From Candidatus Harrisonbacteria bacterium CG10_big_fil_rev_8_21_14_0_10_49_15 (GTDB taxonomy: Bacteria; Patescibacteriota; Minisyncoccia; UBA6257; 1-14-0-10-44-23): DNA of 53,245 bases. This document shows, piece by piece, positions 63 through 50,870 of this stretch (position 1 is its first letter; each line of letters opens with the position of its first letter). Made by a program: the position numbers and the translations under genes. The notes under the pieces are model-generated. The model did not search any database and had not been told where the DNA came from. It saw nothing but the letters and a program-made list of their open reading frames with translations. The DNA lies in assembly GCA_002773415.1 (NCBI GenBank), contig PFBD01000020.1:89667-142911 (forward strand), read 5' to 3'.

Positions 63-1040
63 CTAGCGGATGCCGGTATCAATGGAGATGTTTAATTCCG
101 TAATACCATTGCCCGCGCCTGCCTGCCGGTAGGCCGGAATGGTGACCGGGTGCGTTTGGTGCGTGCCGCCGATGCCCAGTGGGCTATCAACAGAAACTAT
201 ATAATTGCCGGCGGGTAGCTCGGCGAAGTAAGTTCCGCCGAGGTTGGGGGTGATGGTTTTGGTGATTTTCCCGTCTATGCTTTTGGCGGTGATTTTGACC
301 TGCGCAAATAGCTCCGGGGTGGGTTTGCAGTTTTGTTGTGGTGGATCAGATTCCACAGGGCAGATTGGGCCAATGCTGACCGTGCCGGAAAGCTCGCCAT
401 ATTGAATATTTTTGCCGGAGTTAATTTGGCCGGAAAAAACAGCCTTGCCTGCAAAGGTGATACTAATGTTTGCCGAGTGGGCGATGTTACTCGCGGAAAA
501 GTGAATCTCTTGCGGCTCGCCAACAACTTGGATGCAGATGGCGTCCGGATTGGCGTTTTTTATCTCAACGTTGATATTTGATGTCGGGTAGTCCATTGTC
601 GCCATACCGGCTACCTGCCAGTCCACGCACGGCGTACCGCGGGCTAGGGTGCCGGTCAGGGTGAGTGTGCCGAACTGATTGGTCTCTGGTTCGTAGCGTA
701 GAGTTAATTCGCCAATACCGGTTTCAATCTGGCGTGTGATTTCGCCGTTGCTATTTTCAACAGGTGGCTTTGATGGCTCCCAGCCTTCCGGTTGCCAAAA
801 AATGCTTCCGTAGGGGCAGACTTCTTCATACGTTTTGTCTTCGGGGACAAGGTCGCACTGCCAAACCACGCAGGTTTGGTCTGTGGCTGACTCACATTCA
901 GACTTGGTTAGATATCCTGTTTCTGCTACAGGCGTAGCGGTTTTTTCTTGGGCGATGTAATAGGCTCCGCCACCTATAAACAAGGCTAAAATAATGAGTG
1001 CTACTGTGGAAATAGCACCTTTTTGCGATTGCGTGTTCAT
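63..1040 (-). CDS. Secreted/membrane-anchored hypothetical protein with N-terminal TM segment
   Basis: ORF 325 aa; N-terminus GAISTVALIILALFIGGGAYYIA is hydrophobic; contains repeat-derived PAYRQAGAG. Confidence 0.7.
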   Translation of the reverse strand: MNTQSQKGAISTVALIILALFIGGGAYYIAQEKTATPVAETGYLTKSECESATDQTCVVWQCDLVPEDKTYEEVCPYGSIFWQPEGWEPSKPPVENSNGEITRQIETGIGELTLRYEPETNQFGTLTLTGTLARGTPCVDWQVAGMATMDYPTSNINVEIKNANPDAICIQVVGEPQEIHFSASNIAHSANISITFAGKAVFSGQINSGKNIQYGELSGTVSIGPICPVESDPPQQNCKPTPELFAQVKITAKSIDGKITKTITPNLGGTYFAELPAGNYIVSVDSPLGIGGTHQTHPVTIPAYRQAGAGNGITELNISIDTGIR

Positions 1041-4689: not shown

Positions 4690-4782
4690 GATGATAGTAA
4701 TTTCTAATGCCTGCCGGCAGGCAGGGAAAATTGCTTAGACCTGCCTGCCGGCAGGCAGGAATTAGAAATTGAAAATTAGAAA

Positions 4783-6779: not shown

Positions 6780-8063
6780 ATGAGCAAAAAACTTTCAAAC
6801 CTAATAAAGGCCGAGACTAAGCGTCAGCAAGAGACGCTTGGTCTGATTCCGTCTGAAAACATTGCCAGCCCGGCCGTGCTCGCGGCCTTGGGTAGCCCGC
6901 TGACTAACAAGTATTCGGAAGGTTATCCCGGTAAACGTTACTATCAGGGAAACCAAATTGTGGACGAGATTGAACTTTACGCGCAAGAGCAGGGGCTGAA
7001 GGCGTTTGGCTTGCGTGGCGCGCTGAGTAGCGTCTTGCCTATGAGCGAGAGCAAGGTATCTGAGCTGAAAGGGCTTGGAAATTCTTGGTTTTTGAATGTG
7101 CAGGCACACTCTGGAAGCCCGGCAAACGCGGCCATTTATTTCGCGTTGGCGGAGCCGGGGGATACGGTAATGGGCCAGAGTCTGGCGCATGGCGGGCATC
7201 TTACTCACGGCGCGAACTTAAACTTTTCTAGTCGCTTTTATAACGCGGTTCAGTATGGCCTGGATCCGAAGAAGGATTTGATTGATTACGACCAGGTTGA
7301 GAGCTTGGCGAAGCGTCATAAGCCTCGGATAATCTACTCCGGAACAACGGCCTATCCGCAGATAATTGATTTTAAGCGGTTTGGTAAGATTGCTAAAAGT
7401 GTTGGTGCGTATCACGTGGCGGACGTAAGCCACATTGCCGGGCTGATTGCCGGGGGAGCACATCAAGCGCCGTTTCCATATGCAGATGTGGTTATGGCGA
7501 CGACGCATAAGACGATGCGTGGTCCGCGTGGCGCGGTTATCTTTAGTAAAGGTCCGGAGCTGGCGTACAAGATAAACAAGGCGATTATTCCGGGGCTTCA
7601 AGGTGGCCCGCATAACAATGTGACGGCGGCGATTGCTGTGATGTTTGAGGAGATGCAAAAGGTGGCCTTCAAGCGGTACGCCAAGCAGGTGGTTAAGAAC
7701 GCAGCCGTGCTCGCGGCGGAGCTGAAACGTTACGGCTTTGCGCTAGTCTCTGGTGGGACCAAGACCCACCTTATCCTGATTGATTTGAAGAGTAAGAATA
7801 TTACCGGGAAGGCCGCCGCTTTGCTTTTGGAAGAAGCGGGGATTGTGGCGAACAAGAATTCGGTGCCGGGAGATGAGAAACCGTTTAACCCTTCCGGATT
7901 GCGTATTGGCACACCGCTTCTTACCAGTCGCGGTATGAAGGAAAAGGAGATGAAGGAGGTGGCGATGTTCATGCATCACCTGGTTGACCTGAAGGAGCCG
8001 GCGGAGTTTGTCCGTAAGGAAGTGGTGAAGTTATGCAAGAAGTTTCCCCTGCCGTACAAGTAA
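6780..8063 (+). CDS. glyA: Serine hydroxymethyltransferase
   Basis: NKYSEGYPGKRYYQGNQIVDEIE, GDTVMGQSLAHGGHLTHG, PLP site TTHKTMRGPRGA. Confidence 0.97.
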   Translation: MSKKLSNLIKAETKRQQETLGLIPSENIASPAVLAALGSPLTNKYSEGYPGKRYYQGNQIVDEIELYAQEQGLKAFGLRGALSSVLPMSESKVSELKGLGNSWFLNVQAHSGSPANAAIYFALAEPGDTVMGQSLAHGGHLTHGANLNFSSRFYNAVQYGLDPKKDLIDYDQVESLAKRHKPRIIYSGTTAYPQIIDFKRFGKIAKSVGAYHVADVSHIAGLIAGGAHQAPFPYADVVMATTHKTMRGPRGAVIFSKGPELAYKINKAIIPGLQGGPHNNVTAAIAVMFEEMQKVAFKRYAKQVVKNAAVLAAELKRYGFALVSGGTKTHLILIDLKSKNITGKAAALLLEEAGIVANKNSVPGDEKPFNPSGLRIGTPLLTSRGMKEKEMKEVAMFMHHLVDLKEPAEFVRKEVVKLCKKFPLPYK

Positions 8064-8222
8064 AATTTTCAATTCTCAATTTCTAATTCCTGCCTGCCGG
8101 CAGGCAGGTCTAAACAATTTTCAATGATGCAATTTTTCAATGTTTAAAACATTAGGGAATTAGTTTATTGTTTGAACCTGCCTGCCGGCAGGCAGAAATT
8201 GAAAATTCGTAAATTGGAAATT
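8062..8222. repeat. Composite imperfect palindromic intergenic repeat carrying two 20-bp CCTGCCTGCCGGCAGGCAGG modules
   Basis: AATTTTCAATT..CCTGCCTGCCGGCAGGCAGG..TGTTTAAAACATT..TGTTTGAACCTGCCTGCCGGCAGGCAG..AATTGAAAATTCGTAAATT. Confidence 0.85.
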
Positions 8223-14508: not shown

Positions 14509-14690
14509 ACCGGTCATAAAAAGAAACAGCCGTTTCTTTTTATGACCGGTTTCCATCTGCACCTGTTTTTATCGCGATCGCGACAAAAAGGGGTGCAGAA
14601 AATATCTGCCATCTATTTCGCAATTTCGCGAAATTGCGAAATAGATCATTTAATTAAAAAGTATGCGGTCGCATACTTTTTAATTAAATG
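14509..14690. repeat. Cluster of four near-perfect 36-44 bp palindromes
   Basis: 14509-14550, 14557-14598, 14611-14646, 14647-14690; arms compared by eye. Confidence 0.93.
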
Positions 14691-30051: not shown

Positions 30052-30909
30052 ATGCGGTTTTTTGATGCTCATACACACATTCACTTTGCGGCCTTTGCAG
30101 AAGATTCGGCCGAGGTTATTCAGCGTGCCTTGGACGCCGGAGTTTGGATGCTGACTGTGGGTACGCAACGCGACACATCCAAAAGTGCGGTGGAGATTGC
30201 GAATCAGTATACAGAAGGGGTGTACGCGGCTATCGGGTTGCACCCGGTGCATACGACGGAGTCGTATCATGACGAAAAGGAGCTGGGCGGCGGCGAGGCG
30301 GCGAAGGCGTTTGTCAGCCGTGGGGAGGAGTTTGATTTTGAATATTACTTAGAGCTGGCACGTGACCCTAAAGTGGTGGCGATTGGGGAGTGTGGGCTGG
30401 ACTACTACAGACCCGCGAATTACGAATTTGATACGAAAGTACGAATAAGGCAAATTGAGGTTTTCAAAAAACATATTCAGATTGCTCAAGAAGCCGGCAA
30501 AGCCCTGATGGTGCACTGTCGGCCGACCAAGGGAACAGAGAATGCTTACGAAGATTTGCATGAGCTTTTGGAGGAGATGAAGCCGACGGTGCCGATTGTT
30601 ATCCACTTTTATGTGGGAGGTCCGGTGCTCACCAAGAAGTTTGTGGATGCCGGTTATCACTTCACTCTTGGCGGCGTGATCACGTTTGCCCGCGATTATG
30701 ATGAGTCTATCGCGCTAATACCGCTAGACCGGATCTTGAGCGAGACAGACGCGCCATACGTTGCGCCAGAGCCGTATCGGGGTAAGCGAAACGAGCCGCT
30801 GTATATTCCGGCGATCGTCAGGAAGTTGGCAGAGCTTAAGGGGGTGAGTTATGATGAGATGGCGCAGATAACCTTTGAAAATGCCACTCGCATTTTCAAA
30901 ATGAAATAA
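30052..30909 (+). CDS. tatD: TatD-family hydrolase
   Basis: DAHTHIHF, AIGLHPVH, IGECGLDYY, SETDAPY; ATG 30052 preferred over track start 29800. Confidence 0.93.
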   Translation: MRFFDAHTHIHFAAFAEDSAEVIQRALDAGVWMLTVGTQRDTSKSAVEIANQYTEGVYAAIGLHPVHTTESYHDEKELGGGEAAKAFVSRGEEFDFEYYLELARDPKVVAIGECGLDYYRPANYEFDTKVRIRQIEVFKKHIQIAQEAGKALMVHCRPTKGTENAYEDLHELLEEMKPTVPIVIHFYVGGPVLTKKFVDAGYHFTLGGVITFARDYDESIALIPLDRILSETDAPYVAPEPYRGKRNEPLYIPAIVRKLAELKGVSYDEMAQITFENATRIFKMK

Positions 30910-31038
30910 TTTCCAATTTCCAATTTCCAAACAATTTCCAATTTTTTAATTTTCAATGTTTAAAAAATTCTCTCATTAATCCATTGTTTGAACCTGCCTG
31001 CCGGCAGGCAGGAATTGAAAATTCGTAAATTGAAAATT
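30909..31038. repeat. Composite AT-rich intergenic repeat with one 20-bp GC palindrome module
   Basis: AATTTCCAATTTCC..ATGTTTAAA..TGTTTGAACCTGCCTGCCGGCAGGCAGGAATTGAAAATTCGTAAATTGAAAATT. Confidence 0.85.
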
Positions 31039-33528
31039 ATGACCAGATATAATCCCAAAGAAATAGAACCTAAATGGCAGGCCGCTTGGGAGCAGAGTGG
31101 CATCTATAAAGCTGAAGACCAAGGCGAGAAGCCGAAGTGGTATTCGCTAATAGAGTTTCCGTATCCTTCGGGTGCCGGCTTGCATACGGGGCACATTCGC
31201 AGCAACACAGCGCTGGATATTGTCAGTCGGAAGCGGCGGATGCAGGGCTTTAATGTGCTCTACCCGATTGGGTGGGATGCGTTTGGTTTGCCAACCGAGA
31301 ATTTTGCTATTAAGACTGGCCGGCCGCCGCAGGAGGTTACAAAGGAAAATACCGATACGTTTAGGCGGCAGCTGAAGTCGCTTGGTTACTCTTTTGACTG
31401 GAGCCGGGAGGTGGATACAACAGACCCGAACTATTACAAGTGGACGCAGTGGTTGTTTTTGCAGTTTTTTAAAGAAGGGTTGGCGTATAAAGACAAAATA
31501 AACATCAACTGGTGTCCGAAGTGCAAAATTGGTCTGGCGAACGAGGAGGTGGAGCAGGGGTCTTGTGAGCGTTGTGGGGGGCCGGTTGAGGCTCGGGAAA
31601 AAGAGCAGTGGATTTTGAAGATGACGGAGTACGCGGATAAGCTTTTGGATGGTCTTGATGGCGTTGATTTTTTGCCGGAGATAAAAACACAACAGCGTAA
31701 TTGGATAGGCCGTTCAGAGGGTGCGGAAATCAACTTTCCGCTTTCTCCCTTTTCTAAAGGGAGTACGCCGCAGGCGGGAGGGATTTCTTCCATCAAAGTC
31801 TTCACCACCCGCCCCGACACTATCTACGGCGCGACGTTTATTGCCCTAGCTCCGAATCACTCTGCAATTGGAAATTGGAAATTGGAAATTGGAAATTATC
31901 CCGAAGTAAAAGTATTTATTGAAAAAGCAAAAGAGGAAGCCGAAGGCCAGCGTAATGCCGATAAAGCGGGGATTTGTCTGCAAGGGATAACTGCTCTTAA
32001 TCCGGCTACGGGTGAAGAGATTCCTGTTTGGGTAGTTAATTATGTGTTGGGTGATGTTGGCACGGGCGCGATTATGGCTGTGCCTCAACATGACGAGCGG
32101 GATCGAGAGTTCGCGGAGAAATACAATCTGCCTATTCTTGATAAACCACTGGCATCGTGGGAAGAGGTGTTGGAGAAAACCGGGGGCAAAAAAGTTGTTC
32201 GCTACAAGCTGAGGGACTGGGTATTTAGTCGTCAGAGGTATTGGGGAGAACCGATCCCGCTGGTTTTTTGCGCAAATTGCGCCAAAGAACCAGGGGAAAA
32301 TTCTAAGCACGAAGCACGAAATTCTAAGCAAATTCAAAATTCCAAAGTCCAAACAGAAAACAAATATTCGGATTTAAATTATGGATGGGTGGCGGTGCCG
32401 GATGAGCAGTTGCCGGTGGAGCTGCCACGTGTTGAGAAGTATCAGCCAACAGATACCGGAGAGTCGCCGTTAGCCGGTATTACGGAGTGGGTGAACACAG
32501 CTTGCCCAAGTTGTGGCGGTCCGGCTACGCGCGAGACAGATGTGATGCCGAACTGGGCCGGTTCTAGCTGGTACTTTATCAGCTACTGCATAGCTGAAAA
32601 TCTCAAATCTCAAGCACCAAGCATCAAACAATTCACAAGTCCCGAATTCCAAAACAAGCTCAAGTATTGGCTGCCGATAGATTGGTACAACGGTGGCATG
32701 GAGCACTCAACCCGTCACTTGCTGTATGCGCGTTTTTGGATGCAGTTTTTGCATGACCAAGGGTTAGTGCCGGTGGCCGAGCCGTTTGCAAAACGAACCG
32801 CGCAAGGTATGGTCTTGGCGGCAGATGGTAAGAAGATGAGTAAGTCCTTGGGGAATGTGGTTAACCCGGACGAGCTGGTGAATGAGTTTGGCGCGGACGC
32901 GGTCCGACTGTACGAGATGTTTATGGGGCCGTTTGACCAAGCTATTGCCTGGGCGGAGCGTGGTATTTTAGGTCCGTGGCGGTTTTTAGAGAAGGTTTGG
33001 AATATAGGCAGTCGCGTGCATTTCTTAGAAGAGCGCGTGGAGACGCTTCCGGAGGTAAAGAGAAAGCTACACCAAACCATTAAGAAAGTATCTGAGGATA
33101 TTGAGGGGTTGAGTATGAATACGGCGGTGAGCACGATGATGGAGTTTGTGAATATGGCGCCGGGCAAAATTAGTAAAGCTGATTGGCAGTTGTTGCTGCG
33201 CATCTTGGCTCCGTTCGCGCCACACATCACCGAGGAGTTGTACCAACTCCTCGGAAATTCTAAGCACGAAGTACTAAATTCTAAAGGCCAGTCAATTCAT
33301 TCTCAGCCATGGCCGGAGTATGATGAGGCCCTACTAGTTGAAGAGAAGTTTGAGCTGGTTATTCAGGTAAATGGAAAAGTGCGGGCGACAGTGTCGGCAC
33401 AAAAAGGGATTAGTCAGGCACAGGCAGAGGAGATGGCAAAGCCAGCGGTGAGTAAGTGGCTAGAGGAGGGCGAGGTTAAGAAGATCGTATTTGTAGCTGA
33501 TCGACTGATTAACTTCATTGTCTCCTAA
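31039..33528 (+). CDS. leuS: Leucyl-tRNA synthetase with five repeat-like in-frame insertions
   Basis: FPYPSGAGLHTGHIRSN, FTTRPDTIYGATF, SSWYFISYC, KMSKSLGN; ATG 31039. Confidence 0.96.
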   Translation: MTRYNPKEIEPKWQAAWEQSGIYKAEDQGEKPKWYSLIEFPYPSGAGLHTGHIRSNTALDIVSRKRRMQGFNVLYPIGWDAFGLPTENFAIKTGRPPQEVTKENTDTFRRQLKSLGYSFDWSREVDTTDPNYYKWTQWLFLQFFKEGLAYKDKININWCPKCKIGLANEEVEQGSCERCGGPVEAREKEQWILKMTEYADKLLDGLDGVDFLPEIKTQQRNWIGRSEGAEINFPLSPFSKGSTPQAGGISSIKVFTTRPDTIYGATFIALAPNHSAIGNWKLEIGNYPEVKVFIEKAKEEAEGQRNADKAGICLQGITALNPATGEEIPVWVVNYVLGDVGTGAIMAVPQHDERDREFAEKYNLPILDKPLASWEEVLEKTGGKKVVRYKLRDWVFSRQRYWGEPIPLVFCANCAKEPGENSKHEARNSKQIQNSKVQTENKYSDLNYGWVAVPDEQLPVELPRVEKYQPTDTGESPLAGITEWVNTACPSCGGPATRETDVMPNWAGSSWYFISYCIAENLKSQAPSIKQFTSPEFQNKLKYWLPIDWYNGGMEHSTRHLLYARFWMQFLHDQGLVPVAEPFAKRTAQGMVLAADGKKMSKSLGNVVNPDELVNEFGADAVRLYEMFMGPFDQAIAWAERGILGPWRFLEKVWNIGSRVHFLEERVETLPEVKRKLHQTIKKVSEDIEGLSMNTAVSTMMEFVNMAPGKISKADWQLLLRILAPFAPHITEELYQLLGNSKHEVLNSKGQSIHSQPWPEYDEALLVEEKFELVIQVNGKVRATVSAQKGISQAQAEEMAKPAVSKWLEEGEVKKIVFVADRLINFIVS

Positions 33529-38972: not shown

Positions 38973-39016
38973 ACCGGTCATAAAAAGAAACGGCCGTTTC
39001 TTTTTATGACCGGTTG
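38973..39016. repeat. 44-bp perfect palindrome, near-identical to 14509-14550
   Basis: AACCGGTCATAAAAAGAAACGGCCGTTTCTTTTTATGACCGGTT. Confidence 0.97.
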
Positions 39017-45003: not shown

Positions 45004-45125
45004 TTAATTTCCAATTATTAATTTCTAATTTCTAAACAATTTTCAATCTTTCAATTTTCTAATGTTTAAAACATTTGTTTCATTAGTTAATTGTTTGAAA
45101 ATTGAAAATTCGTAAATTGAAAATT
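45004..45125. repeat. Composite AT-rich intergenic repeat, no GC module
   Basis: AATTTCCAATT..TTCTAAACAATTTTCAAT..ATGTTTAAAACATTTG..TGTTTGAAAATTGAAAATTCGTAAATTGAAAATT. Confidence 0.85.
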
Positions 45126-50752: not shown

Positions 50753-50870
50753 ATCAGAAATACTAAACTCTGTATCTATTCTCCCTTTTCTAAAGGGAGT
50801 ACCCCGAAGGGGGGAGGGATTTCTTTCTGAGTTAGAAAGATCTCCATATACATAGTTTAGTGTTTCTGAT
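50753..50870. repeat. Long inverted repeat (23-bp arms, 2 mismatches) enclosing a CTCCCTTTTCTAAAGGGAG repeat
   Basis: ATCAGAAATACTAAACTCTGTAT (50753-50775) versus ATACATAGTTTAGTGTTTCTGAT (50848-50870). Confidence 0.85.

Follow-up and report, generated by a model that had tools for sequence, protein, structure and literature searches.

A perfect 20-bp palindrome present or absent as an exact unit in repeats, duplicated tRNA fragments and genes of Patescibacteria and other bacteria

An AT-rich inverted-repeat element occurs three times in the window (the whole stretch of 53,245 nucleotides that was analyzed), and its copies differ by the presence of two, one or no inserts of a perfect 20-base palindrome devoid of coding capacity, CCTGCCTGCCGGCAGGCAGG, referred to below as the 20-mer. 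Does this series reflect the gain of a mobile unit, and what could move it? The features of the window are listed below.

118 to 137, minus strand: degenerate 20-mer with 2 mismatches, inside the ORF at 63-1040 (PAYRQAG)
4706 to 4725, no strand assigned: partial 20-mer with 2 mismatches (18/20 intact), TGCCTGCCGGCAGGCAGG retained
4740 to 4759, no strand assigned: exact 20-mer within a partial AT-rich element, between GCTTAGA and AATTAGAAATT
8062 to 8222, no strand assigned: AT-rich inverted-repeat element with two 20-mers, both arms filled
8089 to 8108, no strand assigned: exact 20-mer in the left arm of this element, between AATT and TCTAAACAAT
8177 to 8196, no strand assigned: 20-mer with 1 mismatch (last base) in the right arm, between TTTGAA and AATTG
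30909 to 31038, no strand assigned: AT-rich element, right arm filled (G000:C20:120650) and left arm empty (G000:C20:120574)
30993 to 31012, no strand assigned: exact 20-mer
31743 to 31789, plus strand: second host repeat (AAAGGGAG followed by TAC), empty here and filled elsewhere in the genome
45004 to 45125, no strand assigned: AT-rich element, both arms empty (G000:C20:134672 and 134757)
50779 to 50825, plus strand: second host repeat (AAAGGGAG followed by TAC), empty here

The 20-mer is a unit of discrete length, since the form (CCTG)2CCGG(CAGG)2 prevails and forms with one or three units are almost missing. It forms a strong hairpin with a stem of 8 bp and contains no stop codon in any frame. 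The host genome (884 kb in 34 contigs, Patescibacteria type) contains 22 exact sites and 37 sites with at most one mismatch, more than the first-pass annotation had reported when it called for a genome-wide catalogue. The same search with the reversed 20-mer as a control returned 0 sites in the host genome, and 100 shuffles of the window returned 0 chance matches with up to 3 mismatches allowed. The related copies pointed out in the window at the first pass were recovered at 4740-4759 and, for the second neighbor, at 4706-4725, as was the degenerate copy inside a coding sequence at 118-137, whose 325-residue product reads ...TIPAYRQAGAG... at this position, in keeping with the PAYRQAGA reading proposed earlier.

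Each arm of the AT-rich inverted repeat has one insertion point, located between TTGTTTRRA and AATTNNAAATT. The element carries 0, 1 or 2 modules because it has two symmetrical insertion points, the number of modules being the number of filled arms. The host genome was scanned with a pattern permitting 0 to 24 bases at the insertion point. The spacer was either absent or exactly the 20-mer, with the exception of offset matches within heptamer arrays. By our count, approximately 11 arms are filled and approximately 25 are empty, all combinations (both arms, one or none filled) being present, and the junctions of the filled arms carry two left flanks, TTTGAA and TTTAGA. The 2/1/0 series initially described at 8062, 30909 and 45004 was confirmed at all coordinates, and the junction is exact as claimed, TTGTTTGAA being directly followed by AATTG in the empty copy at 45090 and separated from it by the module in the filled copy at 30984.

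The AT-rich element is not the only repeat of the host genome to carry the 20-mer. A second, unrelated repeat, in which the insertion point separates AAAGGGAG from TAC...GGAGGG, exists as six filled copies (one with an insert of 21) and ten empty copies. Filled and empty copies also exist for a third repeat, with the junction between GCTGTTTAG and CTTATTAG. Some of the 20-mers located within one host repeat are of an identical variant in an identical orientation, indicating that part of the copy number results from hitch-hiking rather than from new insertion.

Empty counterparts were sought by joining the flanks of 220 20-mer sites and searching for a copy without the 20-mer. An exact counterpart, with no gap around the junction, was found for 45 of these sites, 21 in the host genome and 24 in other genomes belonging to the Omnitrophota, Nitrospirota, Bacteroidota, PVC and several Patescibacteria. 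These include an Omnitrophota site (L055) with an empty copy matching at 96% over 78 bp, sites with gap-free empty copies in the Nitrospirota (L083) and Bacteroidota (L101), and an ORF-internal site of a PVC bacterium (L027) with a 90% identical empty copy. The absence of gaps indicates that the gain is of exactly 20 bp, without target duplication and without deletion. A search for direct repeats flanking the 20-mer or for a target-site duplication gave no overall signal at the junction. Alignment of the flanks revealed no conserved sequence and only a weak, symmetrical target preference, with an A-T junction at 37/152 sites and, at position +1, T rising to 40% and A down to 9%. The idea, formed by eye, that palindrome centers or hairpin loops are targeted was abandoned, as loops accounted for 36% of the sites versus 32% of the control, a small tRNA subset excepted. 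Genomes of the same genus were absent from the comparison, and the evidence for orthologous gain or loss in intergenic DNA comes from paralogous copies, from duplicated tRNA sequences and from a single gene. At an intergenic site in genus g197, the alignment stops at the stop codon immediately ahead of the 20-mer.

The 20-mer is also found in frame within genes. The mnmA gene of the host (L130:2446-2475) contains a 27-nt in-frame insertion that includes the 20-mer (KYGRPSLPAGRQDYDIVGV); the 7 additional nucleotides, whose origin is unexplained, preserve the reading frame. This insertion is missing from all 11 of the 11 relatives aligned at this position, which read like K-D-Q-G-Y-N-V-V-G-V, and it also appears as a gap in the comparison with solved MnmA structures. 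In another lineage, the chorismate synthase gene of a Roizmanbacterium contains an in-frame copy.

Inspection of the flanks located approximately 12 of 200 unselected 20-mer sites within tRNA sequences, versus 0.6% for random positions. Where this is visible, none of these sequences is the sole intact gene: they are tRNA copies, duplicated or truncated, or genes that are redundant. The 20-mer occupies the D-, T- or anticodon loop or the edge of a loop. In the host genome (L151), the 5' part of a tRNA-Leu gene ending in GGTAGA is followed by the 20-mer, by CGCGC..., by a small GIY-YIG gene and by an intact tRNA-Leu gene. The same layout, i.e., a 5' tRNA fragment, the 20-mer, a GIY-YIG gene and an intact tRNA gene, was found at L019, L066, L226, which has an additional 3' tRNA fragment downstream with a 20-mer in its T-loop, and L294, which holds the sole 20-mer of genome G258. 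Two loci are variants of this layout. At L101, a tandem pair of 5' fragments, both carrying the 20-mer at the same position, lies upstream of an intact tRNA-Leu gene and a GIY-YIG gene. At L159, an intact tRNA-Lys gene and a GIY-YIG gene are flanked by a full tRNA-Lys gene and by a fragment of one, both of which contain a 20-mer in the D-loop. The tRNA-linked small GIY-YIG loci have the following coordinates.

L151:2150-2580
L226:900-1700
L294:870-1363
L159:1448-1980
L101:1700-2400

Small free-standing GIY-YIG genes located between a truncated and an intact tRNA gene of the same kind thus occur in both Patescibacteria and Bacteroidota. By analogy, they may be compared to homing endonucleases that restore the tRNA sequence they target. 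At L226:1132-1154, a different hairpin, CCTGCCAGAACGGCGTTGGCAGG, adjoins the 20-mer in the same D-loop and possibly represents a related palindrome family.

The occurrence of filled and empty sites in two unrelated repeat families, tRNA duplicates, the PVC gene and other phyla extends the initial proposal, namely that a minimal palindromic module without coding capacity gives rise to a filled/empty series. Gradual point change alone, which would have refuted that proposal, was not seen, the spacers being of 0 or 20 nucleotides (21 in one case). Such a series could also arise by loss, if the 20-mer were ancestral in the host repeats, the empty copies resulting from precise deletion and the spread from amplification of the repeats. 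This would account for the filled copies of the AAAGGGAG-TAC repeat, which are of one variant and one orientation, as if a single filled copy had multiplied, but not for the presence of the 20-mer in several unrelated repeats, mnmA, tRNA fragments and unique sites. Furthermore, no flanking direct repeat that could mediate precise loss was present. The direction of the change was inferred to be gain because intact tRNA genes and the mnmA genes of relatives lack the 20-mer, and we consider the ancestral scenario improbable.

The exact 20-mer was detected in 90 of 384 sampled Patescibacteria genomes, with 1 to 31 copies each, and the reversed control in none of the 384. The distribution is patchy, ranging from 0 to 16 copies even inside a single genus. 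Scanning GTDB with a single genome per species returned at least 120 stretches containing the 20-mer. By their titles, the matches listed include Patescibacteria, Omnitrophota, Bacteroidota, Nitrospirota, Elusimicrobia, Verrucomicrobia, Planctomycetes, Chloroflexi, WOR-1, Desulfobacteraceae and named isolates, and the 20-mer is letter-for-letter identical in distant phyla. Phage and plasmid collections gave only short, weak or chance-like matches. Many of the records are metagenome-assembled genomes, which might suggest an assembly or library artifact. However, the matches listed also include isolate genomes, among them the complete chromosome of Maribacter halichondriae, and come from many independent projects; Winogradskyella echinorum and Salegentibacter sp. 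R32 are further cultured carriers; in addition, two loci from separate assemblies (L016 and L210) hold orthologous copies at one site. An artifact is therefore scarcely credible. Identity across distant phyla and the strong hairpin would also be expected if the 20-mer were a signal under selection, arising convergently as a terminator, as a binding site for a protein, or as an uptake or nucleoid signal. Such a signal is difficult to reconcile with the patchiness within a genus, with the copies inside ORFs and tRNA fragments, and with a clean presence or absence of 20 bp rather than gradual change. The absence of any orientation bias between genes and of a T-run in the flanks shown argues against the terminator role that had been put forward for checking, and we give little credence to a selected signal in general.

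The 20-mer is thus gained as exactly 20 bp, enters repeats, duplicated tRNA fragments and genes, and has a patchy distribution. We interpret it as a non-autonomous mobile palindromic micro-element moved in trans, with a probability of approximately 0.78, no transposition having been observed; its size appears to place it among the smallest mobile DNA elements yet encountered. The identity of the 20 bp in the midst of unconserved flanks led us to infer that a trans-acting enzyme recognizing the palindrome is needed. This putative enzyme would recognize the palindrome as a hairpin or as a duplex and would insert it bluntly at a break. Further copies would then be made by host repeats in which the 20-mer resides, and small single-domain GIY-YIG nucleases may cut or mark the loops of tRNA genes.

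The number of GIY-YIG domains per genome, determined for the 384 genomes, has a median of 6 in 20-mer carriers versus 2 in non-carriers. The 20-mer is carried by 3% of the genomes with at most one domain, the number that UvrC alone would yield, versus 55% of those with at least 8 (Spearman coefficient, 0.45). When labels were shuffled within families, the link remained for presence (P = 0.0008) and for copy number (0 of 20,000 shuffles). General proximity was ruled out as support, as GIY-YIG genes lie within 500 bp of only 7 of 187 copies, and position favors GIY-YIG just for the tRNA-linked copies. Among 118 neighboring ORFs, no recurrent transposase or protein family was found beyond GIY-YIG (3/118) and generic domains. 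Small single-domain GIY-YIG nucleases, which are abundant in these bacteria, are thus no more than the leading candidate for the mover, at odds that we place clearly below even. It is more doubtful that the 20-mer represents a new minimal mobile class, in which the palindrome would be moved across phyla by free-standing GIY-YIG nucleases homing to tRNA-gene loops, the locus comprising the tRNA fragment, the 20-mer, the GIY-YIG gene and the tRNA gene acting as the autonomous unit and solo 20-mers being its non-autonomous offspring.

The first-pass annotation had suggested a link with a REP-associated (RAYT/Y1) transposase, and the 20-mer could indeed be a classical REP, i.e., an extragenic palindrome mobilized by an enzyme of this Y1/HUH type. 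Like REPs (PMC6006769), it is a dispersed bacterial hairpin of approximately 20 nt, within the range of 20 to 40 nt, with many dispersed copies (37 in the host) and no target duplication. The presence of Y1 genes does correlate with that of the 20-mer, Y1 genes being present in 60/90 carriers versus 122/294 non-carriers (odds ratio, 2.8; within-family P = 0.002). Position speaks against Y1: the 20-mer was found at 0 of 11 Y1 loci, and the single Y1 gene of the host (L146:12340-13190; G000:C22, approximately 38.0 to 38.9 kb) lies amid a palindrome of its own, GTTACGAGG(CCGAA/TTCGG)CCTCGTAAC, a further copy of which is found at L132:22. This gene and its palindrome are an ordinary REP/RAYT pair. 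Flank base frequencies revealed no GT[AG]G guide tetranucleotide at the foot of the hairpin, where REPs have a conserved 5' tetranucleotide. In addition, the 20-mer is often within ORFs and is a single cross-phylum sequence, whereas REPs are species specific. Genome G020 has 28 copies of the 20-mer and no Y1 match, and the effect of Y1 vanishes in the middle GIY-YIG stratum (odds ratio, 0.97). Overall, GIY-YIG tracks the presence of the 20-mer better than Y1. A classical REP is therefore unlikely. A role of Y1 in trans is not excluded, and a Y1/HUH (RAYT-like) enzyme ranks next to GIY-YIG nucleases as the mover, itself an unlikely one; most of the remaining probability goes to an unidentified enzyme. 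Because Y1 also correlates within families, the mover is unproven. Both correlations may reflect the overall load of mobile DNA, a real confounder; they were stratified by family only, with no tree correction beyond this.

Of the known systems, the mobile GC clusters in yeast mitochondria come closest to how the micro-element that we propose would work. Yeast mitochondrial DNA contains palindromic GC clusters, such as GC42 and GC18, flanked by AG or ACT repeats (PMC4478555), and GC-rich palindromes flank mitochondrial tRNA genes in Neurospora, according to the citation of Yin et al. (1981) in the same article. Similar to the 20-mer, the mitochondrial clusters are short, non-coding, GC-rich perfect palindromes without a known mover that are present or absent at homologous sites, merge with other repeats and occur near tRNA genes. 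In contrast to them, the 20-mer resides in bacterial chromosomes, has a length of 20 bp and a single sequence across phyla, generates no target duplication (AG or ACT for the yeast clusters) and is found in frame in genes. Rickettsia palindromic elements (rickettsial elements of approximately 150 bp that encode a peptide [PMC10969869]) are likewise palindromic and inserted in frame in metabolic genes, the inserted frame lacking stop codons. The 20-mer shares the in-frame insertion (mnmA and chorismate synthase) but not the size of approximately 100 to 150 bp with a conserved peptide. Prokaryotic MITEs (PMC10969869) are also non-autonomous inverted-repeat insertions. Unlike MITEs, the 20-mer is a palindrome over the whole insert, with no internal sequence between terminal inverted repeats, and has no target duplication at exact empty sites; no parent transposon was recognized among the 118 neighboring ORFs. 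The open-access papers searched contained no relevant description of the 20-mer, its halves or its peptides; the novelty of the 20-mer is provisional, since subscription papers were not covered.

If our interpretation is correct, few known mobile DNA units are as small as the 20-mer, which crosses phyla unchanged in bacteria with reduced genomes and in groups that include Bacteroidota and Omnitrophota. It would add peptide insertions to essential enzymes and mark duplicated tRNA genes. It would also offer a bacterial system for testing the mechanism of mobile GC palindromes, unsolved for decades in mitochondria. For annotation, LPAGRQ, YRQAG and similar inserted peptides would have to be regarded as insertion scars.

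Three additional arrangements of palindromes were observed. At L022:456-495, one 20-mer lies near the middle of a second copy, between CCTGCCTGCCG and GCAGGCAG. At L138:1339-1378, variant copies are in tandem, CCTACCTACCGGCAGGCAGG and CCTACCTACCGGCAGGTAGG, with a compensated base-pair change in the second. Finally, the window contains two near-perfect palindromes of 43 bp (14509-14551 and 38973-39015), ACCGGTCATAAAAAGAAAC(A/G)GCCGTTTCTTTTTATGACCGGTT, which are 98% identical and separated by 24 kb.
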